From Rhodospirillaceae bacterium (GTDB lineage: Bacteria; Pseudomonadota; Alphaproteobacteria; GCA-2746255): a stretch of 43,065 bases of DNA. Shown piece after piece: positions 9,498 to 40,262 of this stretch; position 1 is the stretch's first letter, and each line of letters begins with the position of its first letter. Location of the stretch: the NCBI GenBank assembly GCA_002746255.1, contig NVWO01000005.1:1-43065 (forward strand), read 5' to 3'. The notes under the pieces are model-generated. The model searched no databases. It was not told where the DNA came from and saw only the letters and a program-made list of their open reading frames with translations. A program made the translations under genes and the position numbers.

Positions 9498-10004
9498 ATG
9501 CAGAAATCCCTAAACATCGATCCCAACAAATGCACAGGCTGTCTGCAATGCGAGATGGCGTGCGCCTTTGAACTGGAGGGGTCTTTTAACCCTGCGCATT
9601 CCCGAATCAAGATTTTCAACTTCGAGGAAGAGGGGCGTTTCGTTCCCTACACCTGTACGCAATGCGCAGAGGCCTGGTGCCTCCAGGCCTGCCCCGTTGA
9701 TGCCATCAAGATGGATGCCGGAACGGGCGCCAAGGTAGTGGACGAAGCCATCTGCGTCGGCTGCAAAGTCTGCACTATCGCCTGCCCCTTCGGCACGGTG
9801 AACTACAATCAGGCAAGCGGCAAAGTCATCAAATGCGACCTTTGTGGTGGCGATCCGGCCTGTGCGAAGGCCTGTCCGACGCAAGCCATCACCTATGTCG
9901 ATGCGAACTGGACGGGGCTCGACAAGATGCGAGCCTGGGCCGCCAAAACCGATACGGGCGCAGAGTCGACGACGGACACGCCGCAAGTCTCTGCCGGGCA
10001 CTAA
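9498..10004 (+). CDS. aorA: Ferredoxin-like electron-transfer subunit of tungsten aldehyde oxidoreductase, four [4Fe-4S] clusters
   Basis: A 168-residue polyferredoxin of the HycB/DmsB-like type. Sixteen Cys residues fall in four groups: CTGCLQCEMAC, CTQCAEAWCLQACP, CVGCKVCTIACP and CDLCGGDPACAKACP. This is enough for four [4Fe-4S] clusters. It lies 18 bases upstream of the AOR catalytic gene with the flavoprotein gene further on, the same order as aorA-aorB-aorC in Aromatoleum aromaticum. There AorA wires the tungsten subunits together. No signal peptide is present, so the complex is cytoplasmic. A GGGGGG-type ribosome-binding site precedes ATG 9498. The fold assignment is secure; the precise partner is inferred from neighbourhood. 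Confidence 0.9.
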   Translation: MQKSLNIDPNKCTGCLQCEMACAFELEGSFNPAHSRIKIFNFEEEGRFVPYTCTQCAEAWCLQACPVDAIKMDAGTGAKVVDEAICVGCKVCTIACPFGTVNYNQASGKVIKCDLCGGDPACAKACPTQAITYVDANWTGLDKMRAWAAKTDTGAESTTDTPQVSAGH

Positions 10005-10022
10005 ACATCAGGAGAGATCGCC

Positions 10023-11870
10023 ATGGGTTGGCATAAAAAGCTTTTGCGGGTCAATCTGACAAAGGGAACCTGCGAGACCGAGCCCCTTAACATGGAATGG
10101 GCGCAACTCTACCTTGGCTCCCGGGGTCTGGCAGCGAAATACCTCTATGAGGAAATCGACCCCGCCATCGATCCACTTTCCCCCAAGAACAAGCTTATTT
10201 TCGCCACCGGCCCGCTGACCGGAACCAGCGCGTCAACGTCCGGCCGTTACACGGTGACCACGAAAAGCCCGTTGACCGGCGCAATCGCGTGCTCAAACTC
10301 CGGCGGCTATTTCGGCGCCGAGCTGAAATTCGCAGGCTACGACATGGTGATTCTTGAGGGCCGGGCGAAAGAGCCCGTGTATCTTTGGATCAACGATGAC
10401 GAGGTGAAGCTGCTGCCCGCCGACAAAATTTGGGGCAAGACCGTCTGGGAGACGGAACCATGGATCAAAAAGACCCATCAGGACCCGTTGATCCGCGTCG
10501 CGTCCATCGGCATTGCCGGCGAAGCCGGTGTGAAATATGCCTGTGTTGTCAACGATTTGCATCGCGCCGCCGGACGTTCCGGCGTCGGCACGGTGATGGG
10601 ATCAAAAAACCTGAAGGCCATCGCATGCCGCGGCACCACGGGCGTGCGGGTCGCGAACCCGCGCGAGTTCATGAAAGTCGCGCAGGCGACAAAACGGGAC
10701 CTGAAGGAAAGCGCCTTTACCGGTGAAGGGCTGCCGCAATACGGCACCCAGGGGGTGACCAGCGTCATCAACGAATCCGGCATCTACCCGACGCGCAACC
10801 ATCAGGACGTGCAATTCGACGGCGCCAGCCGGATCGGCGGCGAAGCGATGTTCGAAAAGCGGGCATCGGACGGCAAGACGAACATGGTTCGCAACGCCGC
10901 CTGCTTTGGCTGCACGATTGCCTGCGGCCGGATTGCAAAAATCGACCCGAGCCATTTTTCCGTAAAGGACAAGCCGCGTTATCTCGGCGCGTCCGGCGGG
11001 CTTGAATATGAATCGTCCTGGGCCATGGGCGGCGATTGCGGCATCGACGACCTTGAAGCCCTGACCTTTGCAAACAGCGTCTGCAACGAGCAGTCGATGG
11101 ATACGATTTCCTTTGGGGCCTCGCTTGCCGCCGCCATGGAGCTGTACGAACGGGGCTACATCACCGACAAGGAAACCGGCGGCATCAAGTTGAACTTCGG
11201 ATCGGCGGAAGCCCTTGTCCAGATGGTGGAACTGACCGGCCGCAACGAAGGCTTTGGCAAGGACATCGGCCTTGGCTCAAAGCGTTTGTGCGAAAAATAC
11301 GGCCATCCGGAAATTGCCATGACCGTCAAGGGCCAGGAATTTGCGGCCTATGACCCACGCGGGGCGCAAGGCATGAGCCTGGCCTATGCCACCAGCAATC
11401 GCGGTGCCTGCCACCTTCGTGGCTACACCATTGCCGTCGAGATTTTCGGCGTCCATATGAAGGTCGACCCGCTGGTAACGGACGGCAAGGCAGAGGTTAC
11501 GAAATTTTCCCAGGATGTCACCGCCGCCATCGATTCAACCGGCCTCTGCGTGTTCCCGAATTTTGCCTGGACCCTCGACCAGTATCAGCAGCTCGTCCAG
11601 AGCGGCTGCGAAGGCGACTGGTCGATGGAAAAGATGATGGAAGTCGGCGAACGCATCTGGAATCTGGAACGCATGTTCAACAACAAAGCCGGCCTGACGA
11701 AGGCGGACGACACGCTGCCGAAACGGCTGCTCACGGAACCGGCGAAGACCGGCCCCGCCAAGGGGCTGGTTGCCCAACTCGACAAGATGCTGCCGGAATA
11801 TTACGAGCTTCGCGGCTGGACCCCGGACGGCAAGCCATCCAACAGCACGCTGAAACGGCTAAGCATTTAA
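10023..11870 (+). CDS. aorB: Tungsten-dependent aldehyde:ferredoxin oxidoreductase, catalytic subunit
   Basis: A 615-residue member of the AOR family, which oxidises aldehydes to carboxylic acids (and can catalyse the reverse) with a tungsten bis-pyranopterin and one [4Fe-4S] cluster. The opening MGWHKKLLRVNLTKG is typical. The cluster ligands appear as Cys294-X2-Cys297-X3-Cys301 (CFGCTIAC) with the fourth at Cys509 in STGLCVFPNF. The pterin-contact region DPRGAQGMSLAYATSNRGAC is present. An AGGAGA ribosome-binding site precedes ATG 10023. Tungsten rather than molybdenum is inferred from the family and from the tup genes nearby. The aldehyde range cannot be read from sequence. A hairpin with a T tract follows the gene. 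Confidence 0.95.
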   Translation: MGWHKKLLRVNLTKGTCETEPLNMEWAQLYLGSRGLAAKYLYEEIDPAIDPLSPKNKLIFATGPLTGTSASTSGRYTVTTKSPLTGAIACSNSGGYFGAELKFAGYDMVILEGRAKEPVYLWINDDEVKLLPADKIWGKTVWETEPWIKKTHQDPLIRVASIGIAGEAGVKYACVVNDLHRAAGRSGVGTVMGSKNLKAIACRGTTGVRVANPREFMKVAQATKRDLKESAFTGEGLPQYGTQGVTSVINESGIYPTRNHQDVQFDGASRIGGEAMFEKRASDGKTNMVRNAACFGCTIACGRIAKIDPSHFSVKDKPRYLGASGGLEYESSWAMGGDCGIDDLEALTFANSVCNEQSMDTISFGASLAAAMELYERGYITDKETGGIKLNFGSAEALVQMVELTGRNEGFGKDIGLGSKRLCEKYGHPEIAMTVKGQEFAAYDPRGAQGMSLAYATSNRGACHLRGYTIAVEIFGVHMKVDPLVTDGKAEVTKFSQDVTAAIDSTGLCVFPNFAWTLDQYQQLVQSGCEGDWSMEKMMEVGERIWNLERMFNNKAGLTKADDTLPKRLLTEPAKTGPAKGLVAQLDKMLPEYYELRGWTPDGKPSNSTLKRLSI

Positions 11871-11903
11871 GCCGCGCCACAGGTGAAGCCGCCACAGGAA
11901 TGC

Positions 11904-11933
11904 CAGGGAAGGTGCCGATGCGTACCTTCCCTG
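11904..11933 (+). terminator. Terminator-like hairpin inside the operon, between aorB and aorC
   Basis: CAGGGAAGGT (11904-11913) pairs perfectly with ACCTTCCCTG (11924-11933) around a 10-base loop and is followed by attcttttt. This has the form of an intrinsic terminator, yet three more genes of the same functional set follow. It may work as a partial terminator or as a 3' mRNA stabiliser for aorAB. Confidence 0.75.
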
Positions 11934-11995
11934 ATTCTTTTTCGCCGACGTTGCGCGTGCGCGTCTGATTCGGGCCGCAAGGGAAAGGACAGCGA

Positions 11996-13249
11996 ATGAA
12001 GCATGTCATCATTGGCGCCGGCCCGTCCGGCGTGATCGCCGCCACCACCCTGCGCAAATTATGCCCGGAAGACGAAATCCTGCTGATCGGCGGCGAAGCA
12101 GAGCCACCTTATTCGCGGATGGCCATCCCCTATTATCTGATCGGCGACATCAAGGAAGCGGGCACCCACCTCAAGACCAGCACCGACTATTACAAAAAAA
12201 ATCGCATCACCTGTCAGCATGGCCGGGTCACAAAAATTGATCCGAAGAAAAAGGCACTCCATTTAAAAAACGGCAAGACGGTCACCTATGACAAGCTGTT
12301 GCTGGCAAGTGGCGCCTATCCAACCCGCCCGCCGGTCCCCGGCATTGACGACCCGGAAATCACCGGCTGCTGGACCCTGGAGGACGCGCGCCTGATTGCA
12401 AAAAAATGCAGGAAAGGCGTGAAGGTTCTCCAGATGGGTGCCGGTTTCATCGGCTGCATCATCATGGAAGCGATCGCCGCGACGGGCGTCGATCTTACGA
12501 TCGTCGAGATGGGGGACCGCATGGTCCCGCGCATGATGAACGAAACCTGCGGCGGCCTGATCAAACGGTGGTGCGAACAAAAGGGCATTGCCGTTTACAC
12601 ATCAACAAAGGTTATCAAGATTGAAAAGCGGGAAGACAAGACACCCCGTTATGCCATCCAGATGGAAGGTGGAAGGACGCTGGAGGCCGATCTGATTATT
12701 GCCTCAACCGGCGTTGCGCCCGCCCTCGACTATCTTGATGGCAGCGGCATTGAAGCCGACAACGGCATCCTGATTGACCCGCACATGCGGACAAATCTGG
12801 CCAATATTTACGCCGCCGGCGATTGCGCCAAAGGACGGGATTTTTCGACCGGCGGCTATGAGGTCCAAGCCATCCAGCCAACGGCGACGGAACATGGCCG
12901 CATCGCCGCCCAGAACATGGCCGGCGTTCCAACGCCCCATCCGGGCTCGCTGAACATGAACGTACTGAACACGCTGGGGCTGATTTCCAGCTCCTTCGGG
13001 CTATGGATGGGCGTCGAAGGCGGCGAACATGGTGAATTGCTGGACGAAGAAAATTTTCATTACCTGCGCCTGGAGTTCAAGGACGACGTTCTTATCGGCG
13101 CCCAGGCCCTTGGACTGACCCAGCATGTCGGCGTGCTGCGAGGGCTTATTCAGACCCAGACGCATCTCGGCCCATGGAAAGACAAACTGATTGCGGACCC
13201 GACCCTTATCATGTCCGCTTATCTGGCAACAACCCAGGCACAAGCATGA
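11996..13249 (+). CDS. aorC: FAD/NAD(P)-dependent oxidoreductase subunit of the AOR complex
   Basis: A 417-residue pyridine nucleotide-disulphide oxidoreductase-type flavoprotein. The N-terminal FAD-binding loop is GAGPSG (residues 7-12), the NAD-binding loop is GAGFIG (148-153), and the second FAD motif is YAAGDCA around 272-278. It lacks the redox-active Cys pair of disulphide reductases, which fits the NADH-oxidase/ferredoxin-reductase branch. As the third gene of an aorABC-like operon it probably couples AOR to NAD reduction. It starts 125 bases after aorB with its own good ribosome-binding site (AAGGAAAGGA) and overlaps the MoaD-like gene by 4 bases (ATGA). A nitrite- or rubredoxin-reductase-like role is the alternative if it is not part of the complex. 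Confidence 0.88.
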   Translation: MKHVIIGAGPSGVIAATTLRKLCPEDEILLIGGEAEPPYSRMAIPYYLIGDIKEAGTHLKTSTDYYKKNRITCQHGRVTKIDPKKKALHLKNGKTVTYDKLLLASGAYPTRPPVPGIDDPEITGCWTLEDARLIAKKCRKGVKVLQMGAGFIGCIIMEAIAATGVDLTIVEMGDRMVPRMMNETCGGLIKRWCEQKGIAVYTSTKVIKIEKREDKTPRYAIQMEGGRTLEADLIIASTGVAPALDYLDGSGIEADNGILIDPHMRTNLANIYAAGDCAKGRDFSTGGYEVQAIQPTATEHGRIAAQNMAGVPTPHPGSLNMNVLNTLGLISSSFGLWMGVEGGEHGELLDEENFHYLRLEFKDDVLIGAQALGLTQHVGVLRGLIQTQTHLGPWKDKLIADPTLIMSAYLATTQAQA

Positions 13250-13497
13250 AAATTACTCTAAAATTCTACAGCTCACTTAGCGACTTTCTGCCCGATGATG
13301 CGAAGAAAAATGTGGGCGAGATGGACTTCGCCGACAATGCCTCCGCTCAAGACGTCGTCAACAGGCTTGGCATTGCCATGAAAATGGTTCACCTGACGCT
13401 GGTCAATGGCGTTTACGTCGCCCCCAGCGACCTTGCTGCGCAGGCTCTCAAAGAGGGAGACACGCTCGCCATGTGGCCTCCCCTTGCAGGCGGATAA
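13246..13497 (+). CDS. moaD: MoaD/ThiS-like sulfur-carrier protein
   Basis: An 83-residue ubiquitin-fold sulfur carrier. It begins MKITLKFYSSLSDFLPDDA, has the HLTLVNGVYVAPSD segment and the LKEGDTLAMWPPLAGG tail. The C-terminal Gly-Gly is the site of adenylation and thiocarboxylation in MoaD, which donates the dithiolene sulfurs of molybdopterin. The start ATG 13246 overlaps the flavoprotein stop (ATGA). An upstream in-frame start at 13174 would lie inside that gene and add residues foreign to the family. A MoaD-like gene in an AOR operon suggests a carrier dedicated to the tungsten cofactor. No MoaE gene is visible in the window. Confidence 0.9.
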   Translation: MKITLKFYSSLSDFLPDDAKKNVGEMDFADNASAQDVVNRLGIAMKMVHLTLVNGVYVAPSDLAAQALKEGDTLAMWPPLAGG

Positions 13498-13814
13498 TGC
13501 CAGACGCGCCGAAAAGCGAGAGCGCGCCGCAACGGCGCGTGCTTGAGCTTTCCTACAGCCATGTCGAATTGTTCCGCGCCTTCCAAAGAATTTTTGACCC
13601 CCTCCCCGTCTGCATCCAGGGAACGGGTCTGACCGTAACGGACGGAAAAAAGAAAATCGTCGTTGCCCTTGGCGAAGAGCGCGAGCGGCGGCTTGGCGCC
13701 GAGTTCAAACTTCCGGAAACGACAATCGATTTTGCCTTTCACGGCTATAGCGAGGACGAAGCGAACGCCATTCTCAACCACTTCATTCTGCGCACCCGGC
13801 GCGGCGGCGGCTGA
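13497..13814 (+). CDS. Unrecognised 105-residue protein at the end of the AOR operon
   Basis: I do not recognise this family. The start ATG 13497 overlaps the last base of the MoaD-like stop codon (TAATG), so it is translationally coupled. The product is soluble and mixed in structure. It opens with a basic, flexible stretch, then FRAFQRIFDPLPVCIQG, a strand-turn-strand GLTVTDGKKKIVVALG, and a helical SEDEANAILNHFIL, ending RTRRGGG. Only one Cys is present. Its place after a MoaD-like gene suggests a maturation or assembly role for the tungsten enzyme; the Aromatoleum aor operon is also described as carrying extra maturation genes. The three terminal glycines may or may not be functional. The stop codon lies one base from the convergent moaA stop codon. 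Confidence 0.75.
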   Translation: MPDAPKSESAPQRRVLELSYSHVELFRAFQRIFDPLPVCIQGTGLTVTDGKKKIVVALGEERERRLGAEFKLPETTIDFAFHGYSEDEANAILNHFILRTRRGGG

Positions 13815-13815
13815 A

Positions 13816-14805
13816 TTAACCGCCGGTGGTGCTCATATGGCGACGAAGGGCCGGTGCCGCATCGCGCCGGTCGATGACAAAGTCGTGCCCCTTGGGTTTG
13901 CGCCCGATTGCCTCACAAATGGCCTGAACCAGAAGGGCATCGCTTTCGCTCTCTCGGACCGGGGTTCTCAGATCGCCCCAATCGTCCTGACCAAGGCACA
14001 TGTAAAGCTTGCCGGTGCAGGTCAGCCGTACCCGGTTGCACGATTCGCAGAAATTGTGGGAAAGCGGCTCAATAAAGCCAATTCGGCCGCCCGTTTCCCC
14101 AACATCCACGTACCGCGCCGGTCCACCGCTTTGATGGTCGCTGTCGCGCAGGGTCCAGCGTTTTTCAAGCCGCCGGCGCAGTTCTGCCAAGGACAAATAC
14201 TGGTCCATCCGATCCTGTTCGATCTCGCCCAGAGGCATCGTCTCAATGAGAGTCCAGTCAAAGCCCTGGTCCCCGCACCATGCAAGCAAGGCGTCGAACT
14301 CGTCTTCGTTCGTCTCTTTCAGGGCAACGGTGTTGATCTTCACCTTCAGCCCCGCTGCCTTCGCCGCCTGGATGCCTTCCAGCACGGTTTCGATCTTCCC
14401 CCAGCGCGTGAGCGCGCGGAACCGGTCCGCATCCAGGGTATCGAGAGAAACATTGATGCGGCGAACCCCGGCTTCGTAAAGCGCCACGGCATGTTTCGCA
14501 AGATGGTTGCCATTTGTCGTCAGGGTCACTTCGTCAAGGTCGCCGGTCTTTAGATGGCGGCCCAAATTCTGAAACAGGGTCATCACGTCGCGGCGCACCA
14601 GCGGTTCGCCGCCGGTGATGCGGATTTTGCGCACGCCCATGGAAACAAAGGCACTGCAGACGCGGTCCAGCTCCTCCAGGGAAAGCAAATCGCGCCGGGG
14701 CAAAAAGGTCATGTCTTCCGACATGCAATAAACGCAACGCAGATCGCACCGGTCCGTCACGGAAACCCGCAAATAGGTCACGTCGCGTCCAAAGGGGTCC
14801 ATCAT
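13816..14805 (-). CDS. moaA: GTP 3',8-cyclase MoaA
   Basis: Radical-SAM enzyme for the first step of molybdenum/tungsten cofactor synthesis, GTP to 3',8-cyclo-GTP. At 329 residues it has normal length. The N-terminal cluster motif is C20-X3-C24-X2-C27 (CDLRCVYC), followed by [11 protein letters not shown]. The C-terminal second [4Fe-4S] site is C253-X2-C256-X13-C270. The protein ends with the conserved Gly-Gly that reaches into the active site in MoaA. It lies 51 bases downstream of tupC on the same strand and is probably co-transcribed with tupBC, tying cofactor synthesis to tungstate import. ATG 14805 is followed by a second ATG; either could be used. Confidence 0.96.
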
Positions 14806-14856
14806 GGGTTGTCGGTTCCTTCTTTCCAGCCGTCTGGTGGGGCCACAACCGTCAGT

Positions 14857-15576
14857 TTACCACGTAAGCCGGCCTGCGAGAAAGGCCACCGCTTCCGGGC
14901 TTTCCGGGCCGGAAAAGAAGGCTGCTGCCGGTTTCCGCTCGACCAGCCGGCCGCCGCAAAGGAAAAGGATGTCCTCGCCAAGCCGTCGCGCCTGGCCAAG
15001 ATCGTGGGTCGTCATCACAATTTTCGTGCCGCTGGCCTGAATTTCAAGAATAACATCTTCAACGATCCGGGTCGCCGCCGGGTCGAGACTGGCGCTCGGC
15101 TCGTCCAGAAAAAGCACCTGGGGCCGGACCGCCCAGGCGCGCGCAAGGGCCAGGCGCTGCTGTTCACCACCGGAAAGGACGCGTGCCGGCAGTTTTGCCT
15201 TCGCGGTCAGGCCGGTTCGGCCCAGAACTTCTGCAACCCGGCGATGACGTTCGGCCCTCGCAACACCGCGACCGGCCAGGGCATAGGCAACGTTGCCGGC
15301 CACCGAACGGCGCAGCATCACCGGGCGTTGAAAAACCATCGCCTGGGCGTGCATCGCTTCTTCCTGGCTGTGTTCATGCCAGGCGATCCGCCCCTCTGTT
15401 GGCGACAGCAGGCCGTGGCAAAGACGAAGCAGCAGGCTTTTCCCGGCGCCGTTCGGCCCCAGGATGAGCGTGCGGTCCTCCGCCTGAATGTCCAGGAAAA
15501 TGCCCTTTAGCAAGGCCTGGCCGCCTATTTCATAGGCAAGATCCGTCAGCACGAGAGGAAAGATTGTCGCACTCAT
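14857..15576 (-). CDS. tupC: Tungstate ABC transporter, ATP-binding protein
   Basis: A 239-residue ABC ATPase that would energise uptake of oxyanions through TupB. The P-loop reads GPNGAGKS, the signature LSGGEQQRLALARA and Walker B LFLDEPSASLD, followed by the switch TTHD. The start ATG 15576 overlaps the tupB stop (ATGA); an earlier in-frame start would lie inside tupB in the wrong protein context. The tungstate assignment rests on the TupB-type permease next to it, the nearby tupA and the AOR operon. By sequence alone the ATPase could serve molybdate or another anion. Confidence 0.88.
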   Translation of the reverse strand: MSATIFPLVLTDLAYEIGGQALLKGIFLDIQAEDRTLILGPNGAGKSLLLRLCHGLLSPTEGRIAWHEHSQEEAMHAQAMVFQRPVMLRRSVAGNVAYALAGRGVARAERHRRVAEVLGRTGLTAKAKLPARVLSGGEQQRLALARAWAVRPQVLFLDEPSASLDPAATRIVEDVILEIQASGTKIVMTTHDLGQARRLGEDILFLCGGRLVERKPAAAFFSGPESPEAVAFLAGRLTW

Positions 15577-16280
15577 GAAATGCCCCGTCGCGACGCCGCG
15601 TTGCCAATCGCATAAACCGCCCCATTGATCAGCAGTGAGATCCCAAGCAGCAGAATGCCCAGCCCAAGGGCAAGGGTCAGATTTCCCTTGCTGGTTTCCA
15701 GCGCAATGGTTGTCGTCATGACGCGGGTCACGTGGTTGATGTTGCCACCGACAATCATGACGGCGCCCACCTCGGCCATGGCGCGGCCCAGACCCGCCAG
15801 CACCACCGACAGCACCCGGGCGCGCCCGTCCCAAAGCAGGGTTGCCATCATCCGACCGCGGCCAATGTCAAGGGAACGCAAAAGTTCGCCATATTCGTCC
15901 CATAAATCGACGACCACCTGACGGGTGAGCGCGGCGATGATCGGCACCACCAGCAACACCTGGGCGATAATCATCGCCGTCGGCGTGAACAGAAGCCCAA
16001 GCACGCCCAAAGGCCCGGCCCGGGAGATCAACAGATAAACGATGAGGCCGACGACAACCGGCGGCAGGCTCATCATCGCGTTCAAAAGGACAGCAAGAAC
16101 GCCGACGCCCGGAAAGCGGAACAATGCGACGGCCGCCCCAAGGGGCAGGCCGATCAGCGCAGCGATGCCAACGGCGGTCAGGCTGACCTGCAACGACAGG
16201 GCGACGATGCTGACGAGGTCGGGATCAAAAGCCCCGATCATCGCAAAGGCATGGGCAAAGGCGGTTGCAAAATCGTTCAC
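15573..16280 (-). CDS. tupB: Tungstate ABC transporter, permease
   Basis: A 235-residue inner-membrane permease with about five hydrophobic segments. The long loop with the coupling helix includes EYGELLRSLDIGRGRMMATLLW and the AMAEVGAVMIVGGNI block typical of TupB/WtpB-type anion permeases. It is the first gene of a minus-strand unit tupB-tupC-moaA and is divergent from fetA across 131 bases. Unlike the common tupABC order, the binding-protein gene is not adjacent; it lies about 1.7 kb away on the other strand. A molybdate or sulfate role is the alternative, but the TupA homologue in the same locus favours tungstate. Confidence 0.88.
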   Translation of the reverse strand: MNDFATAFAHAFAMIGAFDPDLVSIVALSLQVSLTAVGIAALIGLPLGAAVALFRFPGVGVLAVLLNAMMSLPPVVVGLIVYLLISRAGPLGVLGLLFTPTAMIIAQVLLVVPIIAALTRQVVVDLWDEYGELLRSLDIGRGRMMATLLWDGRARVLSVVLAGLGRAMAEVGAVMIVGGNINHVTRVMTTTIALETSKGNLTLALGLGILLLGISLLINGAVYAIGNAASRRGIS

Positions 16281-16337
16281 GGCGTTTCCCTGTGTCTTGA
16301 GCCGTCAAAGTATCTCGGGCCGTCGAAAATCTACTGC

Positions 16338-16358
16338 CCTTTCCGGCGCGTGGAAAGG
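16338..16358. promoter_or_regulatory. Inverted repeat in the tupB-fetA divergent region
   Basis: CCTTTCC (16338-16344) and GGAAAGG (16352-16358) form a perfect 7-base inverted repeat with a 7-base spacer, midway between the divergent tupB and fetA starts. It could be a regulator-binding site for either unit. No bound protein is implied by the sequence. Confidence 0.35.
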
Positions 16359-16411
16359 ATTGCAAATCGGCAAACGGTGACGCCGGGCCCGCATTTCGCT
16401 ACAACCTAGAC

Positions 16412-17020
16412 ATGCTGCAGATCAACGCGTTGCAGACGGAGCACCTGGCCGCAATCGATGCCGCGATCGCCAGCGGCGAATGCGTCGCCGTCATGGGGCC
16501 AAGCGGCTCTGGAAAAACGCTGTTCCTGCGCGCCATCGCCGATCTGGACCCGGGCACGGGGCGGGTGACCCTAAACGGCGTTGAGCGGCAAAGCCTGACG
16601 GCCCCGCAATGGCGGCAAAAAGTCTGTTACCTGCCGCCGGATTCCGGCTGGTGGGCAGACGACGTCGCCGCGCATTTCCCAGACAGCCACGCGGCGCGCG
16701 CGCTTTTCCCGCGCCTGGGGCTGCCGGTGACGGCGCTGGACTGGGAGGTCGCACGGCTTTCCACCGGTGAACGCCAACGCCTGGCCCTTGCACGCGCGCT
16801 GTTGCTTCACCCCGCCGTGCTGCTTCTGGACGAACCGACATCCGGTCTGGACGCGACCACCATAGCAGCGGTCGAAGCGGTGCTGAAACACGCCCTGGAC
16901 GAAGGCACCGCGATCGTACTTGTCACCCATGACGCCGCCCAGGGAAAGCGCATGGCAAAACGCTGCCTGCATTTCAACCAGGGACGCCTTGAAAGCGAGG
17001 AACAATGGGCGCCGACGTAA
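16412..17020 (+). CDS. fetA: FetA-type metal-export ABC transporter, ATP-binding protein
   Basis: A 202-residue ABC ATPase with a compact fold as in FetA/YbbL. P-loop GPSGSGKT is near residue 30, the signature is the variant LSTGERQRLALARAL, and Walker B is LLLDEPTSGLD with VTHD following. It overlaps the permease gene by 16 bases. The E. coli FetAB pair is linked to iron export and peroxide resistance. Here the pair lies between tupBC and tupA, so a link to metal balance in the tungsten/iron-sulfur locus is possible, but no specificity can be read from the sequence. Confidence 0.85.
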   Translation: MLQINALQTEHLAAIDAAIASGECVAVMGPSGSGKTLFLRAIADLDPGTGRVTLNGVERQSLTAPQWRQKVCYLPPDSGWWADDVAAHFPDSHAARALFPRLGLPVTALDWEVARLSTGERQRLALARALLLHPAVLLLDEPTSGLDATTIAAVEAVLKHALDEGTAIVLVTHDAAQGKRMAKRCLHFNQGRLESEEQWAPT

Positions 17021-17811
17021 TAGCCTTAAGCTATGGCGACCTTGCGCTTGCGTCGCTGCTTGTCCTGCTGAACGCGGGCCTTTCTTTCGGCCTGCGCCTG
17101 CGCCTTGAAAGCCAGTTGCTGATCGCCGCCCTGCGAATGGTCGTTCAGCTTAGCCTTGTCGGCCTTGTCCTGAACGCGCTTTTCACAAGCGTCTCCCCCG
17201 TTTTGACAGGCTTTGTGGCCCTGGCCATGGTGCTGTTCGCCGGTCGTGAAATCGCCGCCCGCCAGGAACGGCGCCTGGCCGGCTGGTGGACCTATGGCCT
17301 TGGCACGACCAGCGTGCTGATGGCGGCCATGGTCGTAACGGTGCTGGCCCTCACCACCCAGATTCAACCGGACCCCTGGTACCACCCACGCTTTGCCATT
17401 CCCATTCTGGGCATGATCCTTGGCAACACGATGACCGGCGTCGCCCTTGGCCTGAACACGCTGATGACGACGGTCGCGCGCGAACGCGTCGCCATCGAAG
17501 CGCGGCTGGCGCTGGGCCACAAATGGCGCGATGCCTTTCGCAACGTCATCCGCGAGGCGATGCGAAGCGGCCTCATCCCGATCGTCAACGCGATGGCGGC
17601 GACGGGCTTGGTCTCGCTGCCAGGCATGATGACCGGGCAGATTCTTGCCGGGGCGGACCCCATGCACGCCATCAAATACCAGTTGCTGATTATGTTCCTG
17701 ATTGTTGGCGGCACCGGCCTTGGCGTCTTCGCAGCGATTCTGGCGGGCGCGCACCGGCTGACGGATTCCCGCCATCGCCTGCGCCTGGATCGCCTGCGCA
17801 AGGCCAAGTAA
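17005..17811 (+). CDS. fetB: FetB-type metal-export ABC transporter, permease (UPF0014)
   Basis: A 268-residue inner-membrane protein of the FetB/YbbM (UPF0014) family. Hydrophobic segments occur near residues 10-30, 37-60, 65-85, 95-115, 125-150, 193-215 and 225-250. Family hallmarks include LRMVVQLSLVGLVL, PILGMILGNTMTGVALGLN and ATGLVSLPGMMTGQILAGADP. Translation overlaps fetA by 16 bases, so the two form one unit. A hairpin follows the stop codon directly and separates it from tRNA-Gly. Iron export is the role known for the E. coli homologue; the substrate here is not established. Confidence 0.92.
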   Translation: MGADVIALSYGDLALASLLVLLNAGLSFGLRLRLESQLLIAALRMVVQLSLVGLVLNALFTSVSPVLTGFVALAMVLFAGREIAARQERRLAGWWTYGLGTTSVLMAAMVVTVLALTTQIQPDPWYHPRFAIPILGMILGNTMTGVALGLNTLMTTVARERVAIEARLALGHKWRDAFRNVIREAMRSGLIPIVNAMAATGLVSLPGMMTGQILAGADPMHAIKYQLLIMFLIVGGTGLGVFAAILAGAHRLTDSRHRLRLDRLRKAK

Positions 17812-17813
17812 GG

Positions 17814-17833
17814 CGGCCCTTGCACAAGGGCCG
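17814..17833 (+). terminator. Hairpin after fetB
   Basis: CGGCCCTTG (17814-17822) pairs perfectly with CAAGGGCCG (17825-17833), 3 bases after the fetB stop codon. There is no T tract, and a second GC-rich hairpin (GCCGCC with GGCGGC) follows, so termination efficiency is uncertain. Confidence 0.45.
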
Positions 17834-17860
17834 AGCCGCCGCCTAAAGTGGCGGCCGCAC

Positions 17861-17934
17861 GCGGGTGTAGCTCAATGGTAGAGCTCCTGCTTCCCAAGCA
17901 GGTGACGAGGGTTCGATTCCCTTCACCCGCTCCA
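17861..17934 (+). tRNA. tRNA-Gly (anticodon CCC)
   Basis: A 74-base tRNA with encoded CCA. Acceptor stem GCGGGTG pairs with CACCCGC, discriminator T. The anticodon stem CCTGC/GCAGG encloses TTCCCAA, giving anticodon CCC for GGG codons. The T arm GAGGG-TTCGATT-CCCTT is canonical. It sits between fetB and tupA. Confidence 0.96.
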
Positions 17935-17947
17935 TTGTCACAAAAAC

Positions 17948-17975
17948 GGGCCCGCCTGAAAGGGCCCGCCTGAAA
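17948..17975. repeat. 14-base perfect tandem duplication after tRNA-Gly
   Basis: The unit gggcccgcctgaaa is present at 17948-17961 and 17962-17975 without mismatch, 13 bases after the tRNA and just before the tupA leader. Each unit contains the palindrome GGGCCC, so the two can pair with one another as a weak hairpin. Confidence 0.9.
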
Positions 17976-17991
17976 GACGCTGGAAAATTTT

Positions 17992-18816
17992 ATGTCTTTT
18001 CGAAACGTGCTGTCCGTCCTGCTTGGCCTGTTTTGCATCAGCCCCGTCTGGGCAGCAGAAAAAGTGCTCGTTCTTGCCTCAACGACATCGACGGAAAATT
18101 CCGGACTCTATGATTTTCTACTGCCCATCTTCAGGGAAGAAACCGGCATTGCGGTCCGCGTCGTCGCCGTCGGCACCGGCCAGGCAATGAAGCTTGCCCA
18201 GAGAGGCGACGCCGACGTTCTGCTTGTTCATCACCGGTCGTCGGAAGATCGCTTCATCGCCGAAGGCTATGGGATCGACCGCCGCGACGTCATGTACAAC
18301 GATTTTGTGATCGTTGGCCCCGGTGACGACCCGGCCGGCATCCTGGGGGTGCATGATGTCGGCGACGCCCTGCGGAAGATCGCCAAACACAAGGCGATGT
18401 TTGTCTCACGCGGTGACGACAGCGGCACCCACAAGATGGAACGCGACCTTTGGCGGGCGATCGATTTCGATGTCCGCCCGGCCTCTGGCGACTGGTATCG
18501 CGAGACTGGTTCCGGCATGGGCGCCACCCTGAACACGGCGGCGGCGGCCGACGCCTACACGCTGACGGATCGCGGCACATGGCTTGGTTTTCAGAACCGG
18601 CGGCGGCTTATCCTTGCCGTCCAGGGCGACCCCCGGCTTCTCAACCCCTATGGCATTATCCGCGTCAACCCGGAACGCTTTGCGCATTTGAACGCCGAAG
18701 CGGCGCGGATTTTCGTCGACTGGCTGACCTCGAAGCGAGGGCAAGCCGCCATCGCCGCCTTCCGGATAAACGGCAAGCAGCTTTTCTTTCCAAATTACAA
18801 GAAAAACGCCCCCTGA
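17992..18816 (+). CDS. tupA: Tungstate-binding periplasmic protein of ABC transporter
   Basis: A 274-residue solute-binding protein. Residues 1 to about 21 form a signal peptide ending VWA-AE, so it is exported to the periplasm. The mature N-terminus LASTTSTENSGLYDFLLPIF carries the TTST-x-SGL oxyanion-binding motif of TupA. Further family features are DVLLVHHRSSEDRFIAEGYG, MYNDFVIVGP and SRGDDSGTHKMERDLW. It would capture tungstate and hand it to TupB/TupC, whose genes lie on the opposite strand beyond fetAB. TupA proteins of this type select tungstate strongly over molybdate, but specificity here is by homology. A gap of 98 bases separates it from the response regulator gene. Confidence 0.93.
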   Translation: MSFRNVLSVLLGLFCISPVWAAEKVLVLASTTSTENSGLYDFLLPIFREETGIAVRVVAVGTGQAMKLAQRGDADVLLVHHRSSEDRFIAEGYGIDRRDVMYNDFVIVGPGDDPAGILGVHDVGDALRKIAKHKAMFVSRGDDSGTHKMERDLWRAIDFDVRPASGDWYRETGSGMGATLNTAAAADAYTLTDRGTWLGFQNRRRLILAVQGDPRLLNPYGIIRVNPERFAHLNAEAARIFVDWLTSKRGQAAIAAFRINGKQLFFPNYKKNAP

Positions 18817-18914: not shown

Positions 18915-19592
18915 ATGCGCATCTTAATCATCGAAGACGACCACGAGATGGCGGCCTATCTTATGAAAGGCCTGAAGGAACACGGCTATGTTGTCGATCA
19001 CGCAGCGGACGGCCGCGACGGCCTTCTGCTTGCATCAACCGGCGATTTTGACCTTCTGATTATCGACCGCATGCTGCCCCATACGGACGGCCTTTCCATC
19101 GTCAAGCTTTTGCGCGAACAGGGCATCAAAAGCCGCATTCTTCTCTTAAGCGCGCTCGGCCAGGTGGACGACCGCGTCAGCGGCCTGAAGGCCGGCGCCG
19201 ATGATTACCTTGCCAAGCCTTACGCCTTTTCCGAATTGCTGGCACGGATCGAGGTTCTGCTGCGGCGCAAGGATAGCGAGGGCGAACAAAGCCGGCTTCA
19301 CGTCGGCGATCTGGAGATGGACATGATCGCCCGGACGGTCAAGCGGGCAGGCAAAGAAATTGAGCTGAAGCCGCGCGAATTCCGCCTTCTTGAATATCTG
19401 ATGCGCCACGCCAGCCAGGTTGTCACCCGGACGATGCTGCTGGAAGGGGTCTGGGATTATCATTTCGACCCTCATACGAATGTCATCGACGCGCAGGTAA
19501 GCCGTCTTCGCCAGAAAATCGACAAGGGCTTTGGAAAACCGATGATCCATACGATTCGCGGTGCGGGGTATTTGCTTCGTGCAAATGATTAG
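18915..19592 (+). CDS. OmpR-family response regulator
   Basis: A 225-residue DNA-binding response regulator. The receiver domain (residues 1-115) has the acidic pair ED at 7-8, the phosphoacceptor Asp51 in IIDRMLPHTDG, and the Lys of LAKPYAF. The C-terminal winged-helix domain carries ELKPREFRLLEYLMRHASQVVTR and HTIRGAGYLLR. It overlaps the histidine kinase gene by a few bases and so forms a standard pair. The regulon cannot be read from sequence; the position directly after tupA makes tungstate transport or aldehyde metabolism possible targets. Confidence 0.94.
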   Translation: MRILIIEDDHEMAAYLMKGLKEHGYVVDHAADGRDGLLLASTGDFDLLIIDRMLPHTDGLSIVKLLREQGIKSRILLLSALGQVDDRVSGLKAGADDYLAKPYAFSELLARIEVLLRRKDSEGEQSRLHVGDLEMDMIARTVKRAGKEIELKPREFRLLEYLMRHASQVVTRTMLLEGVWDYHFDPHTNVIDAQVSRLRQKIDKGFGKPMIHTIRGAGYLLRAND

Positions 19593-21036
19593 ACTGTTTC
19601 GAACCTCGGCCTTTCGAATGGCGGTCCTTTACATGGCCGTCTTTGGGCTGTCCATGTTTGCCATCCTGGGCTTCACCTATTACGCAACGATCGAGGTCAT
19701 CGACGCGGAAACGAACAACGTTATCGACGCGGAAACGAAAGGGCTTGTCGAGCAATACAGCCTTCTTGGCCTGCGTGGGATCGCCAACGTCATTCAACAC
19801 CGATCCGTTAATTTGAAGGCACCGGGCGCGGTCTATCTGCTTGTGAACCATCGCTACGAACGGATCACCGGAAATTTAAGCGCCTGGCCAGCCGACACCG
19901 CCGAGCCAGCCGGCACCGCCGAGGCGGCCATCCTTCCTCTGGCACCTCCAGAGGACGGCAAATGGATTCATTTCCGTATCAGCCATGGTGAGGGTGAAGA
20001 AAAAGTCTCCCGCCAGATGCGGGCGCGAGTCATTGATCTGTCGAACGGCTATCACGCGCTGGTCGGCCGCGACATCGGCGAGCGCGAGCGTTTCCAGGAA
20101 GTGATGCGGGCGACGGTTGCCCTGTCGATTTTCCTTATGACCCTGCTGGCCTTTATCAGCGGCCTGCTTCTTAGCCGCCAGATGCTGCGTCGGGTTGATT
20201 CGATTGCCAAAATCAGCCGGCAAATTATTGACGGCGATTTGACAAAACGCGTCACCGTGCGCGGAACCGACGACGAGTTTGACCGGCTTTCCGCAAATCT
20301 GAACGAGATGTTCGACCAGATCGAACAATTGTTGCTTGGCATGCGCGCCGTAACGGACAGCATCGCCCATGATCTGGGTGCCCCGCTGACCCGCCTGAAA
20401 AACCGGATCGAGATGACGCTTCGCGGTGCACCGGACATGAACGCCTACCGGGCCGCCCTGAAAGGGGCCATCAAGGAGACCGATTATATCCGCGCAACCT
20501 TCGACGCGCTGATCGACATCGCACGTGTCGAGGCAGACGCGATGCGCCTTGAGATGGCGCCGCTGAACCTGACCGATCTTGCCGAGGAGTTGCTTGAGCT
20601 TTACGAGCCAATGGCGAACGAGCAGCAGCTTCACCTGGAAGCCTCCCTCGCCGCAACCGCGCCGGTGCTTGCCAACCGCCAGACTCTGGCCCGGGCGTTC
20701 TCGAACCTTCTCGACAATGCCATCAAATACACGCCGGCCGGAGGCACCATCCGGCTGAACGTCACAACGACACCCGAACAGGTCTGCTTTGTTCTTGAAG
20801 ACAGCGGCGACGGCATTCCGGCGGCGGATCGCGAACGCGTGCTGCAACGCTTCGTCCGGCTGGAAAAGAATCTGGCAACCCCCGGCACCGGCCTGGGGCT
20901 AAGTCTTGTCGCGGCGGTGGCAAAGCTGCATCGGGCCACCCTTGAACTGGACGACAACGCGCCGGGCCTGCGGATAACCCTCACCTTCCAGCGCTGCCGG
21001 AAAGACGACGGCCAGACGGAAAACCGTCAAGCCTGA
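19585..21036 (+). CDS. Sensor histidine kinase
   Basis: A 483-residue membrane kinase, partner of the preceding regulator. An N-terminal membrane segment (about residues 8-32) is followed by a periplasmic sensor region of some 140 residues, a second membrane segment near 172-194 and a HAMP domain. The dimerisation box holds the phospho-His262 in SIAHDLGAPLTRL, then the N box LLDNAIKYTP, G1 EDSGDGIP and G2 TGLGLSLV. ATG 19585 was chosen; GTG 19579 in the same frame is an alternative. The sensor region contains two tandem duplications (8-residue VIDAETNN/VIDAETKG and 6-residue PADTAE/PAGTAE), which suggests a fast-changing ligand region. The ligand is unknown. Confidence 0.93.
   Translation: MIRLFRTSAFRMAVLYMAVFGLSMFAILGFTYYATIEVIDAETNNVIDAETKGLVEQYSLLGLRGIANVIQHRSVNLKAPGAVYLLVNHRYERITGNLSAWPADTAEPAGTAEAAILPLAPPEDGKWIHFRISHGEGEEKVSRQMRARVIDLSNGYHALVGRDIGERERFQEVMRATVALSIFLMTLLAFISGLLLSRQMLRRVDSIAKISRQIIDGDLTKRVTVRGTDDEFDRLSANLNEMFDQIEQLLLGMRAVTDSIAHDLGAPLTRLKNRIEMTLRGAPDMNAYRAALKGAIKETDYIRATFDALIDIARVEADAMRLEMAPLNLTDLAEELLELYEPMANEQQLHLEASLAATAPVLANRQTLARAFSNLLDNAIKYTPAGGTIRLNVTTTPEQVCFVLEDSGDGIPAADRERVLQRFVRLEKNLATPGTGLGLSLVAAVAKLHRATLELDDNAPGLRITLTFQRCRKDDGQTENRQA
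19699..19739. repeat. 24-base period duplication in the kinase sensor region
   Basis: A 17-base sequence beginning atcgacgcgg is repeated exactly at 19699-19715 and 19723-19739, giving an 8-residue duplication just after the first membrane segment. Confidence 0.9.
19887..19922. repeat. 18-base tandem duplication in the kinase sensor region
   Basis: Two adjacent 18-base units (19887-19904 and 19905-19922) differ at one position and encode PADTAE and PAGTAE. Confidence 0.9.
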
Positions 21037-26402: not shown

Positions 26403-26689
26403 AGGGCCCGCTCATTTCCCTCTGGCTGCTGCTGACCGCTGTCATCTGCTTCGGCCTTTTCTTCGCGAAATACGAGGTGCAATCCCTGGAAGGCGAGCTT
26501 GCCGCCCTTAACCGGGAAATCCTCAACGGCCAGGGGGAACTCCATGTGTTGCGGGCAGAATGGGCCCTGTTGAGCCGGCCCGAACGCATTCACAGTTTAA
26601 GCACGCGCTATCTTGACCTTCGAACGGTGAGCGCGACACGCATTGGCACGCCGGACGCGCTGGCTGCGCATCTGGAGGCCGGCAAATGA
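26399..26689 (+). CDS. ftsL: Cell division protein FtsL
   Basis: A 96-residue bitopic division protein. One membrane segment (about residues 5-24, LISLWLLLTAVICFGLFF) is followed by a periplasmic coiled coil (KYEVQSLEGELAALNREILNGQ) and a conserved RPERIHSLSTRYLDL tail. FtsL forms a complex with FtsQ and FtsB that activates FtsWI. The start ATG 26399 overlaps the rsmH stop codon, and the 3' end overlaps ftsI by 4 bases. Sequence conservation in this family is low; the assignment rests on topology and position between rsmH and ftsI. Confidence 0.92.
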   Translation: MKGPLISLWLLLTAVICFGLFFAKYEVQSLEGELAALNREILNGQGELHVLRAEWALLSRPERIHSLSTRYLDLRTVSATRIGTPDALAAHLEAGK

Positions 26690-28395
26690 ACCGCCAGCCC
26701 CGCCAGCAAACCGATCGCGCCCACCGCCGGGCGATTGAAACCGGCCGCACGCGCCTTGTTCTGATGGGCGCGCTGGCGATGCTTGCCTTCCTGGCCGTTG
26801 GTGTGCGGCTTGTCGATGTGATGGCGCTTCGCGAAGGCCATGAGCCGCGACTGGCCGATGCCAATTTGCCCGTTGTCTGGCAAACGGAACGCGCCGATAT
26901 TCTCGATCGCAATGGCGAAATTCTGGCAACCAATTTGCGCACGGCATCCCTTTACGCCGACCCCAAGAAGGTGCAGAACCCGAGACAGGCGGCGCAGCGT
27001 CTTGCCCGCCTGCTGCCCGGCCTGAACCGCGCCGCAACCTTCACCCTGCTGACGTCCAATCGCCGTTTCATCTGGATTCGCCGCCACCTGACGCCGCGCC
27101 AGCAATACGCCGTCAACGCCCTTGGCATTCCCGGCCTTTATTTCCAGCATGAAGAGCGCCGGGCCTATCCCCATGGCCACCTGGCCGCCCATGTTGTCGG
27201 GTTTACCGGCGTCGACAATCGCGGCCTTGCCGGAATCGAAAAATCTTTCGACGAGGTTTTACGAAACGGCAGCGGCCCGTTGCGGCTTTCTCTCGACATT
27301 CGCGTCCAGCACATTCTGGCCGATGAGATTGCCGGCGCGATGCAGCGTTTTCAGGCCATCGCCGGCATCGGCGTTGTCATGGACGTAACAAATGGCGAAG
27401 TGCTTGGCCTTGTCTCGCTGCCCGATTTCGATCCGAACCGACCTGGCGCGGCTTCGCCGAACGCCCTGTTCAACCGGGCGACGCTTGGCATCTACGAAAT
27501 GGGTTCGACGTTTAAAATTTTTACGGCGGCGATGGCCCTTGAAAGCGGCACGGCAACCATTCAAAGCATCTATGACGCGTCGAAACCGATCCGCGTCGCG
27601 CGCTTTCTCATTCGCGATTTCAAACCAAAAAACCGCTGGTTGTCGATGCCGGAAATTCTGATGTATTCGTCGAACATTGGTGCCGCAAAAATGGCCATGG
27701 ACGTCGGCACCGATCGCCAACGGGCCTATCTTGCAAAGCTTGGGCTGCTGAACCAGGCCGACATCGAGTTGCCAGAGATTGGCACGCCGCTTAGCCCGAA
27801 GCGGTGGCGTGAAATCAATCTGATGACGATTGCCTATGGCCACGGCCTTGCCGTAAGCCCCCTGCAATTGACCAGCGCCGTCGCAACAGTCGCCAATGGC
27901 GGTATCGCCCTGCCCGCCACGATGCTGCATCAGCCGAACGCGACAGCGGCGCAAGACGCGGCGAAAGAAGGCAGGCGCGTTTTCTCGCCGGAAACGTCCG
28001 AAAGGATGCGCCGGCTTCTACGCCTGGTTGTCGCCAAGGGAACGGGCCGCAACGCGGCGGCCAAAGGCTATCTCGTTGGCGGCAAAACCGGCACGGCCGA
28101 GAAAATTTCCGCCAAGGGGTACGCGCGCAAATCGCTGCGTGCCTCTTTCATCGGCGCCTTTCCAATGCACGCTCCGCGCTATGCCGTCTTCGTCATGCTG
28201 GACGAGCCGAAAGGCGACAAAAAGAGTTTTGGCTATGCCACCGGCGGCTGGGTTGCCGCACCCCTTGTCAGTCGCATTGTCACGCGGATGGCGCCCCTTG
28301 TCGGGGTTGCGCCCATCGACGAAAACGCGCCCGCAATCAAACAACGGATGTTCATTGAAATAAACGACCGGGGACAGAAGCTTGCGTCTTTCTGA
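26686..28395 (+). CDS. ftsI: Septal peptidoglycan transpeptidase FtsI (PBP3)
   Basis: Class B penicillin-binding protein that cross-links septal peptidoglycan. It has 569 residues with a short basic cytoplasmic tail, one membrane anchor (about residues 24-45) and a periplasmic pedestal opening ERADILDRNGEILATNL. The transpeptidase domain has catalytic Ser274 in STFK (274-277), the SSN triad at 328-330 and KTGT at 467-470. It overlaps murE by 14 bases. It acts with FtsW, encoded further down the same cluster. Confidence 0.97.
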   Translation: MNRQPRQQTDRAHRRAIETGRTRLVLMGALAMLAFLAVGVRLVDVMALREGHEPRLADANLPVVWQTERADILDRNGEILATNLRTASLYADPKKVQNPRQAAQRLARLLPGLNRAATFTLLTSNRRFIWIRRHLTPRQQYAVNALGIPGLYFQHEERRAYPHGHLAAHVVGFTGVDNRGLAGIEKSFDEVLRNGSGPLRLSLDIRVQHILADEIAGAMQRFQAIAGIGVVMDVTNGEVLGLVSLPDFDPNRPGAASPNALFNRATLGIYEMGSTFKIFTAAMALESGTATIQSIYDASKPIRVARFLIRDFKPKNRWLSMPEILMYSSNIGAAKMAMDVGTDRQRAYLAKLGLLNQADIELPEIGTPLSPKRWREINLMTIAYGHGLAVSPLQLTSAVATVANGGIALPATMLHQPNATAAQDAAKEGRRVFSPETSERMRRLLRLVVAKGTGRNAAAKGYLVGGKTGTAEKISAKGYARKSLRASFIGAFPMHAPRYAVFVMLDEPKGDKKSFGYATGGWVAAPLVSRIVTRMAPLVGVAPIDENAPAIKQRMFIEINDRGQKLASF

Positions 28396-29872
28396 TCTCT
28401 TACGCGACGAAGAAATGGCTTTGATGTTTGCGACAACAGGAAAGAACGTGGAAATTACCGGGATTACAGCTGATTCCCGCAACGTCGAACCCGGCTTTTT
28501 GTTCGCCGCCCTTCCCGGCGCACAAACGGACGGCGCGCGGTTTGTTCCCCAGGCGCTTCGCCAGGGCGCCGTCGCCATCCTTGGCGCGCCGGCATTAAAA
28601 ACGGCCTTTCCAGACAGTGGGGCGGAATTTCTTCCCGCAGAAAATGCTCGCAAGGCCTTCGCCATGATCGCCGCGCATTTCTGTGGCGCGCAACCGCGCC
28701 AGATCGCCGCTGTCACCGGCACGAACGGCAAAAGTTCCGTCGTCGGCTTTGCGCGCCAGATTTGGGAGCATCTTGGCGTGCGCGCGGCAAGCCTCGGCAC
28801 CCTTGGCCTTGAACCGCCGCTTGCGTCCGACACCGGCGCGCAAGCCAGCCCGCTCACAACCCCCGATCCTGTAAGGCTGCACAAGCTGCTGGCCGAACTC
28901 GCCACGCAAAAAATCGATCACCTGGCGATGGAAGCCTCAAGCCACGGCCTGGAACAGTTCCGCCTGGACGGCGTGCGTGTAAGCATTGCCGTCTTTACGA
29001 CATTTTCACGCGATCACCTCGATTACCACGGTTCGCTCGAAGCCTATCTTGCCGCCAAGCTTCGCCTGTTTTCGGAATTGCTGGACGAAAACGGCACCGC
29101 CGTTCTCAACGCCGACGATGCCGCCTTTGACAGCGTTCAGGCCATCTGCGTCCAGCGCGGCGTTCGCATTTTCAGCTATGGCGAAAAAGGCGACGCGCTT
29201 CGCCTGCTTGAAAGCAGACCCGTCGCCGATGGCCAGGACGTTGCCTGCGAAATTCTCGGCAAAAAGACGCGCTTTCACCTGCCCCTTGTCGGTGCCTTCC
29301 AGGCGAAAAACGCCTTGGCCGCCCTTGGCCTTGTTCACGCCGCCGGCGCGGACATGGCCAACGCGCTGGCAATTCTGCCAAAGCTTCGCCCCATCCCCGG
29401 ACGTATGGAAACAATCGGCCGGCTTGCCAATGGCGCGCAAATTCATGTGGATTATGCCCATACGCCGGACGCACTGGCGAACGCATTGCGCGCGCTGCGC
29501 CCCTACGCAGCGGGCCGCCTGGTCGTTCTTTTCGGCTGCGGCGGCAACCGGGACCGGGGCAAACGCCCGGAAATGGGCGCGGTGGCCGATGCCCTTGCCG
29601 ATGCCGTCTTCGTCACCGACGACAACCCCAGAAACGAGGACGCCAGCGCCATCCGCCAGGACATTCTAATTGCGTCGCGCAAAGGGAAAGAAATCCCCGA
29701 CCGCCGCCTGGCCATCCATGCGGCCATCGAAAGCCTAGGCGCGGGCGACGTCTTGCTGATCGCCGGCAAAGGCCATGAGCAGGGCCAAATCGTCAACGCC
29801 GAAACCCTGCCCTTCGACGACCGCGACATCGCCCGCAACGCCATAAGCGCGACAGGAGACACGCCGAAATGA
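28382..29872 (+). CDS. murE: UDP-MurNAc-L-Ala-D-Glu:meso-diaminopimelate ligase
   Basis: Cytoplasmic ATP-dependent Mur ligase that adds the third residue of the stem peptide. It has 496 residues, with the P-loop TGTNGKSS around 112-119 and the DNPR motif at 414-417, which marks meso-diaminopimelate rather than lysine as substrate. The start is TTG 28382, overlapping ftsI by 14 bases, because MRLSDLL and the following ITADSRNVEPGFLFAALPG align with the usual MurE N-terminus. An in-frame ATG 11 codons later would lose the RLSDLL motif. It ends in a 4-base overlap with murF. Confidence 0.96.
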   Translation: MRLSDLLRDEEMALMFATTGKNVEITGITADSRNVEPGFLFAALPGAQTDGARFVPQALRQGAVAILGAPALKTAFPDSGAEFLPAENARKAFAMIAAHFCGAQPRQIAAVTGTNGKSSVVGFARQIWEHLGVRAASLGTLGLEPPLASDTGAQASPLTTPDPVRLHKLLAELATQKIDHLAMEASSHGLEQFRLDGVRVSIAVFTTFSRDHLDYHGSLEAYLAAKLRLFSELLDENGTAVLNADDAAFDSVQAICVQRGVRIFSYGEKGDALRLLESRPVADGQDVACEILGKKTRFHLPLVGAFQAKNALAALGLVHAAGADMANALAILPKLRPIPGRMETIGRLANGAQIHVDYAHTPDALANALRALRPYAAGRLVVLFGCGGNRDRGKRPEMGAVADALADAVFVTDDNPRNEDASAIRQDILIASRKGKEIPDRRLAIHAAIESLGAGDVLLIAGKGHEQGQIVNAETLPFDDRDIARNAISATGDTPK

Positions 29873-31296: not shown

Positions 31297-31307
31297 GGAG
31301 CGGCAAC

Positions 31308-32396: not shown

Positions 32397-32400
32397 CGCC

Positions 32401-40242: not shown

Positions 40243-40262
40243 GAGCACCAGGAACGAATGCC

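Follow-up and report, generated by a model that had tools for sequence, protein, structure and literature searches.

A probable Class III-type operon, aorABCDE, for a tungsten aldehyde oxidoreductase beside tupBC and moaA in a Rhodospirillaceae bacterium

The window analysed here is a 43,065-nucleotide stretch of DNA from a Rhodospirillaceae bacterium (assembly GCA_002746255.1, contig NVWO01000005.1, positions 1 to 43,065), and the subject is a gene cluster at 9498-18816 that brings together genes for an aldehyde oxidoreductase (AOR), a pterin biosynthesis gene and genes for an ATP-binding cassette (ABC) transporter. With a probability of about 0.82, the locus is the known aorABCDE operon of the Aromatoleum-type, "Class III" tungsten AOR subclade, lying beside a tupBC-moaA operon, with tupA standing apart as its own unit. 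An original prediction, made from the sequence alone, had named eight genes in this interval, and all eight are present where it placed them; the 105-residue gene that it left without a name is aorE, which makes the locus the described aorABCDE operon. The cluster as such is of a known kind, and what goes beyond known work is the AorE partner and a hairpin between aorB and aorC.

The aor operon and its enzyme

The aor genes occupy 9498-13814 of the forward strand. The first, aorA (9498-10004), encodes a polyferredoxin subunit with four [4Fe-4S] clusters; aorB (WorL; 10023-11870) encodes the predicted tungsten bis-pyranopterin catalytic subunit, with Pfam domains AFOR_N and AFOR_C; and aorC (WorN; 11996-13249) encodes a Pyr_redox_2 subunit that binds flavin adenine dinucleotide (FAD) and nicotinamide adenine dinucleotide (NAD(H)). 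The best solved relatives of all three proteins are chains of one structure, 8c0z, the AorABC complex of Aromatoleum aromaticum EbN1: 8c0z_C for AorA (phmmer E 5e-79), with an alignment that extends through the C-terminal helix, 8c0z_A for AorB (E 3e-274 over 614 aligned residues), and 8c0z_E for AorC (E 3e-134). Homology thus upholds the claim of a tungsten AOR built from three subunits, one of them a flavoprotein that reacts with NAD.

AorB is 65% identical to its homologue in A. toluclasticum, and residues E330, Y443 and H464, together with C294, C297, C301 and C509, are invariant among seven homologues. The first three are the counterparts of Glu331, Tyr443 and His464, which have been proposed as catalytic residues of the A. 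aromaticum enzyme (PMC10413684). The C-terminal helix of AorA mediates, and is needed for, filament formation in A. aromaticum (PMC10413684), and this helix is retained at the sequence level. The features of a Class III tungsten oxidoreductase are therefore found together: WorL domains with the residues for the tungsten-pterin and [4Fe-4S] cofactors, a four-cluster polyferredoxin with the helix, an FAD/NAD subunit, and aorDE downstream. Bound tungsten, an aldehyde substrate, use of NAD and filament formation are expected by analogy, being carried over from the homologues.

The Tup-type transporter, moaA and their linkage to aor

Judged from strands and overlaps, the genes fall into three or more transcription units, with aorABCDE and tupA on the forward strand and tupB-tupC-moaA on the reverse strand (16280 to 13816). 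There are overlaps between aorC and aorD, between aorD and aorE, and between tupB and tupC, where the tupC start lies over the tupB stop; tupC and moaA are 51 bases apart. The aorE and moaA genes are convergent, with ends only 1 base apart.

The tupB gene (15573-16280) encodes a tungstate-type ABC permease that scores 159 bits against NF041773 versus 63.5 bits against ModB, and in a quick tree it groups with TupB proteins and apart from ModB (support 70 for the whole TupB set and 98 for a 26-row subset that includes the window protein). The ABC ATPase gene (ABC_tran; 14857-15576) is assigned as tupC from its neighbour tupB. For the periplasmic tungstate-binding protein encoded by tupA (17992-18816), NF041772 is the sole NCBIfam match (E 2e-70), and the strong PDB matches are TupA-type structures, with E values down to 1e-70. 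The residues of the tungstate site, including a TTTS motif, have been named for Desulfovibrio alaskensis TupA (PMC5517513), and the equivalents of Arg118, Thr124, Asp170 and His59 appear, by motif, to be retained. Grouping therefore supports a predicted Tup-type tungstate importer, as first proposed: TupA and TupB were to be compared with molybdate and sulfate proteins, and they group with TupA and TupB rather than with ModB or CysT/W.

The remaining gene of the reverse-strand unit, moaA (13816-14805), encodes a GTP 3',8-cyclase (TIGR02666, 365 bits, cut-off 284). It sits with tupBC and not in the aor operon, and it is the single copy in the genome, so it must also serve other pterin enzymes. 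Other genes of the pathway lie elsewhere: moaE, a canonical moaD, mobB and one moeA are together on contig C5 (G000:C5, ~87.0-89.5 kb; L124 7050-9510), and a second moeA is found with moaC on contig C4 (G000:C4; L125 8161-9845). The original description of the cluster as a self-contained module with a dedicated cofactor supply is accordingly not supported. The two MoeA proteins differ at informative positions, in that the mobB-linked one reads IKPGR...GLPGNPVA and the moaC-linked one reads PGK...NPVT; in Methylorubrum MoeA1, the IKPGR and NPVA residues have been associated with a preference for tungsten.

Molybdoenzyme candidates are also encoded, namely a nitrate reductase that resembles NasA and several SUOX-family proteins, including an MsrP-like one. 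The genome (estimated completeness 99.8%) was searched by family and by stretches, and statements of absence rest on these searches. A DUF2336 match in it is consistent with the class Alphaproteobacteria. A tungsten formate dehydrogenase was considered as a further client of TupABC and rejected; the 915-residue PF00384 frame is NasA-like and lies beside NirB and a nitrate-type transporter gene, and a second PF00384 frame, of 690 residues, is probably NuoG, judging from its size and conservation. Enzymes of the xanthine oxidase family were not found in the genome.

The conservation of gene order argues that the linkage of aor and tup is not accidental. G001, G002 and G003, the other members of the genus examined, retain the arrangement aor-moaA-tupCB; aorABCDE-tupBCA is continuous in three genomes from other families of the class (G030, G179 and G385; loci L118, L178 and L179); and 12 of the 42 loci with full flanks have tupA or tupB no more than 10 kb from aorB. 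The arrangement in other families makes the window layout look like a rearrangement. In a survey of 387 genomes of the class, 34 had any AOR-family match, 16 had an AOR with identity of 57% or more and 11 had the AorE-bearing type, in agreement with the earlier suggestion that such islands are uncommon in this class. Among these 11, tup genes were found beside aor in six, within the stretches fetched. The tupA gene beside aor in G030 (C4:22358-23113; L021) reads with one internal TAG.

Several observations nevertheless weigh against a transporter devoted to tungsten and to this enzyme. TupA reaches 237 bits against a cut-off of 400 for NF041772 and TupB falls similarly short of its cut-off of 320; for TupB the top NCBIfam match is the broader permease subfamily NF038017, with TupB as the best named transporter. 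With both proteins below the equivalog cut-offs, only the label "Tup-type" is justified, and exact tungstate specificity is unproven. The TTTS motif reads STTS in the window TupA. The tupA gene lies outside the cluster in two of the three sister genomes, so that only the present genome (G000) and G001 have it beside the cluster. Finally, apparent molybdoenzymes are encoded, yet no ModB-type permease scored above the cut-off in the four genomes of the genus (G000-G003). TupB is the best ModB-type match in all four, and the next-best, weak permease matches lie in Pst-like phosphate operons.

One might therefore suppose that tupBC-moaA is a general locus for molybdate or tungstate uptake and pterin synthesis that merely adjoins aor, with TupABC feeding the molybdoenzymes as well as the AOR. 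This alternative comes close to an even chance. The permease survey and the NasA-like and MsrP-like genes favor it, as do the single moaA and a genome (G019) in which tup and moaA are together on a different contig from the AOR. It is opposed by the unbroken aorABCDE-tupBCA arrangement in other families and by the 12 of 42 loci with tup near aor. Under the reading of a tungsten AOR operon with a linked Tup-type importer, TupABC likewise need not be tungsten-only, since TupBC is the sole Mod/Tup-type permease found in the genus and the genome encodes NasA-like and MsrP-like enzymes. As the draft genomes yielded no other candidate, TupABC may serve both metals as the chief oxyanion importer, or even as the only one that can be recognised.

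A hairpin between aorB and aorC

A terminator- or attenuator-like stem-loop lies on the forward strand in the gap between aorB and aorC (11904-11933), with a 12-bp stem followed by a T-rich tract. A simple scan of the entire window found no excess of terminator-like sites (13 versus 13.2 expected), and this stem was the longest that it listed. The hairpin is present in the three sister genomes, where two pairs are changed on both sides and no pair is broken, a modest covariation signal drawn from four sequences. Of wider significance, among 63 loci with an aorB-aorC gap of at least 45 bases, 24 have a terminator-like hairpin, with the GC-rich stem and U-tract of an intrinsic terminator, compared with 1.7 expected from dinucleotide shuffles; 45 of the 63 gaps fold at z < -2. 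Such hairpins are found at none of 11 aorA-aorB junctions and at one of 14 aorC-aorD junctions. Among 114 further same-strand gaps from these loci, each 45-200 bases long, 7 carry such a hairpin (p 2e-7 versus aorB-aorC), a comparison that involves rough gene calls and loci that are not independent.

The published A. aromaticum filament consists of many AorAB units and one AorC, Aor(AB)nC (PMC10413684). Given this stoichiometry, it is an attractive proposal that a leaky terminator or stability hairpin would reduce the output of aorC compared with that of aorAB. Two papers on the A. aromaticum AOR contain no mention of a hairpin or terminator. One result fits the proposal less well: the entire aorB-aorC gap of the window has a z of just -1.7, though the local value is -4.0.

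Alternatively, the hairpin may have nothing to do with a ratio. It could be a full terminator, with aorCDE transcribed from a separate promoter, or it could act on mRNA stability with no change in AorAB:AorC, and such explanations are only somewhat less probable than not. They gain from the finding that many of the gaps that fold strongly lack a T-tract of the terminator type. On the other hand, the products of the flanking genes belong to a single complex, most gaps are about 100 bases long, and no promoter-like site was found in it by a scan for the sigma-70 consensus only.

AorD and AorE

The product of aorD (13246-13497) is a MoaD/ThiS-like carrier that ends in PPLAGG and matches Pfam ThiS and Ub-Mut7C. 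Its profile matches MoaD structures, and it has the marks of a MoaD/ThiS sulfur carrier, a beta-grasp sequence family and a C-terminal GG. The genome encodes a separate canonical MoaD elsewhere, and the inferred MoaD-like carrier linked to AOR is thereby corroborated as distinct from the ordinary one.

AorE (13497-13814, 105 residues) ends in GGG and has no match in Pfam or NCBIfam. Open reading frames that follow aorD and end in [RK]GGG were found at 58 loci by a search that required the tail. To remove this requirement, an AorE profile that omits the last six columns was made, and all 63 of its hits that have a stop codon again end in [RK]GGG; the same is true of nine loci never selected by tail (L041, L049, L115 and L174-L179). 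The GGG columns are the sole fully invariant ones in the AorE alignment. The comparison included A. toluclasticum (L041), which has the AorE family, but not the AorE of its congener A. aromaticum itself.

AorE is tightly associated with one type of AOR. Within the class, its profile matches exactly the 11 genomes that carry this AOR subclade, and the 376 others give no match (Fisher p ~2e-21, relatedness ignored). AORs whose AorD ends in K/R/E/H/V-GG are without AorE, and in an AorB tree of 91 rows the label for AorE presence switches just four times.

The first report of aorE described the product as resembling MoaD, on the basis of similar size, a position beside aorD and a glycine-rich C-terminus (PMC6365974), and so one might expect AorE to be merely a degenerate MoaD paralogue. 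This is very improbable. The AorE and AorD profiles are related with a probability of only 1.3%, and the beta-grasp fold is not what is predicted: two AlphaFold models started from different first sequences concur on the order b-a-b-b-b-b-a (mean predicted local distance difference test scores 87 and 90). In a Foldseek search with the second model, two chains of the Thermus protein 1v8c rank first and second (E 6e-4 and 1e-3; probability 1.00); with the first model, 1v8c is at rank 19. The top matches of that first model, plant abscisic acid receptors and KA1 domains, were set aside as kin, with E values above 1e-3 and mostly high root-mean-square deviations. The AorE profile also aligns to residues 124-168 at the C-terminal end of 1v8c (E 0.29, weak alone), and both end in RGGG. 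Taken together, fold, profile and tail make 1v8c look like a natural AorD-AorE fusion. AorE is thus, according to the models, not a MoaD fold but a helix-grip/TATA-binding protein (TBP)-like one.

The best guess for the putative role of AorE is maturation of AorB, in which its tail might act as a carrier, in adenylation or in insertion. In recombinant AOR, specific activity rose when aorDE and tungstate were added, and aorDE alone gave higher activity with no rise in tungsten content (PMC9295118, Table 1).

Three loci show further variation around aorE. A Piscirickettsiaceae metagenome-assembled genome carries a tandem pair of aorE genes ending in RGGG and KGGG (L094 7967-8557). Genome G232 has a second, partial AorE-like stretch ending in YQRGGG right after a cobW-like gene (C1:1817383-1817514; L201), perhaps a duplicated remnant. 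In Magnetovibrio blakemorei, a ModE-like regulator gene, judged by eye, lies downstream of aorE (L032, ~13750-14136).

Proposed working of the system

In the working proposed here, TupA would bind tungstate and TupBC would import it. MoaA, together with MoaC, MoaE, a MoaD-type carrier and MoeA encoded elsewhere, would make the tungsten-pyranopterin, and AorD and AorE would assist the maturation of AorB. AorB would oxidise aldehydes to acids, with electrons passing through the four AorA clusters and the FAD of AorC to NAD+, and the aorB-aorC hairpin would lower aorC output versus aorAB, fitting Aor(AB)nC filaments with one AorC. The fullest version of the two newer elements is a tentative and rather unlikely combination: AorE would be a maturation factor specific to tungsten AORs, of non-ubiquitin fold, with GGG as a carrier or insertion tail beside AorD (the two joined in one Thermus chain), and AorAB:AorC in the conducting filament would be set by a conserved leaky terminator.

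A molybdenum-containing AOR in this organism is very improbable. The presence of apparent molybdoenzymes in the genome speaks for it; against it, the nearest enzyme to have been characterised contained tungsten and no molybdenum (PMC6365974), and a tungstate-type transporter and a MoeA with tungsten-type residues are encoded.

Relation to known systems

The closest known system is AorABC(DE) of A. aromaticum EbN1, which shares the five genes and their order (PMC6365974), ~65% AorB identity, the three subunits and the C-terminal helix of AorA. It differs from the present locus in that here the tupBC-moaA operon converges on aorE, and in its literature aorE is just a putative maturation factor resembling MoaD. 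The Class III WorLSN systems of a 2026 classification (PMC13328260) have the same WorL, WorS and WorN and a predicted NAD+ partner; AorE is not treated in the parts of that account available here. Clusters of AOR, a distinct MoaD, a pyridine-disulfide oxidoreductase, a ferredoxin and sometimes MoaA (the AOR-MoaD-MoeB-MoaA clusters of Iyer et al. 2006) were proposed as possibly mobile, with a role in the tungsten cofactor (PMC1779556); Tup genes and the AorE family are not described in the portion consulted.

The Thermus thermophilus "MoaD related protein" 1v8c resembles AorE, through its C-terminal part, in profile, fold and final RGGG, but it is one 168-residue chain and not two proteins. D. 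alaskensis TupABC (PMC5517513) shares the residue equivalents given above and differs in the TTTS motif and in that tupA is here detached from tupBC. The cluster extends a known tungsten enzyme to a further lineage. AorE, for which the solved Thermus protein offers a modelling template, could make the fitting of tungsten bis-pyranopterin into AOR-type enzymes simply testable, and the hairpin could do the same for how a cell assembles numerous AorAB units and a single AorC into one filament.

Other features of the window

The original prediction omitted two features that separate tupA from tupBC, an ABC pair resembling FetA/FetB (16412-17811, forward strand; UPF0014 PF03649, 272 bits, plus an ATPase) and a tRNA-Gly gene (17861-17934, forward strand). 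The FetA/FetB-like pair is not at the corresponding place in sister genome G001 and probably lies outside the tungsten pathway. No riboswitch in the window reached the Rfam gathering score. Genes for an OmpR-type response regulator and a histidine kinase lie 3' of tupA (18915-21036) and stay beside the cluster across the genus, and positions 26686-41513 hold an ordinary dcw cluster of genes for cell division and peptidoglycan.

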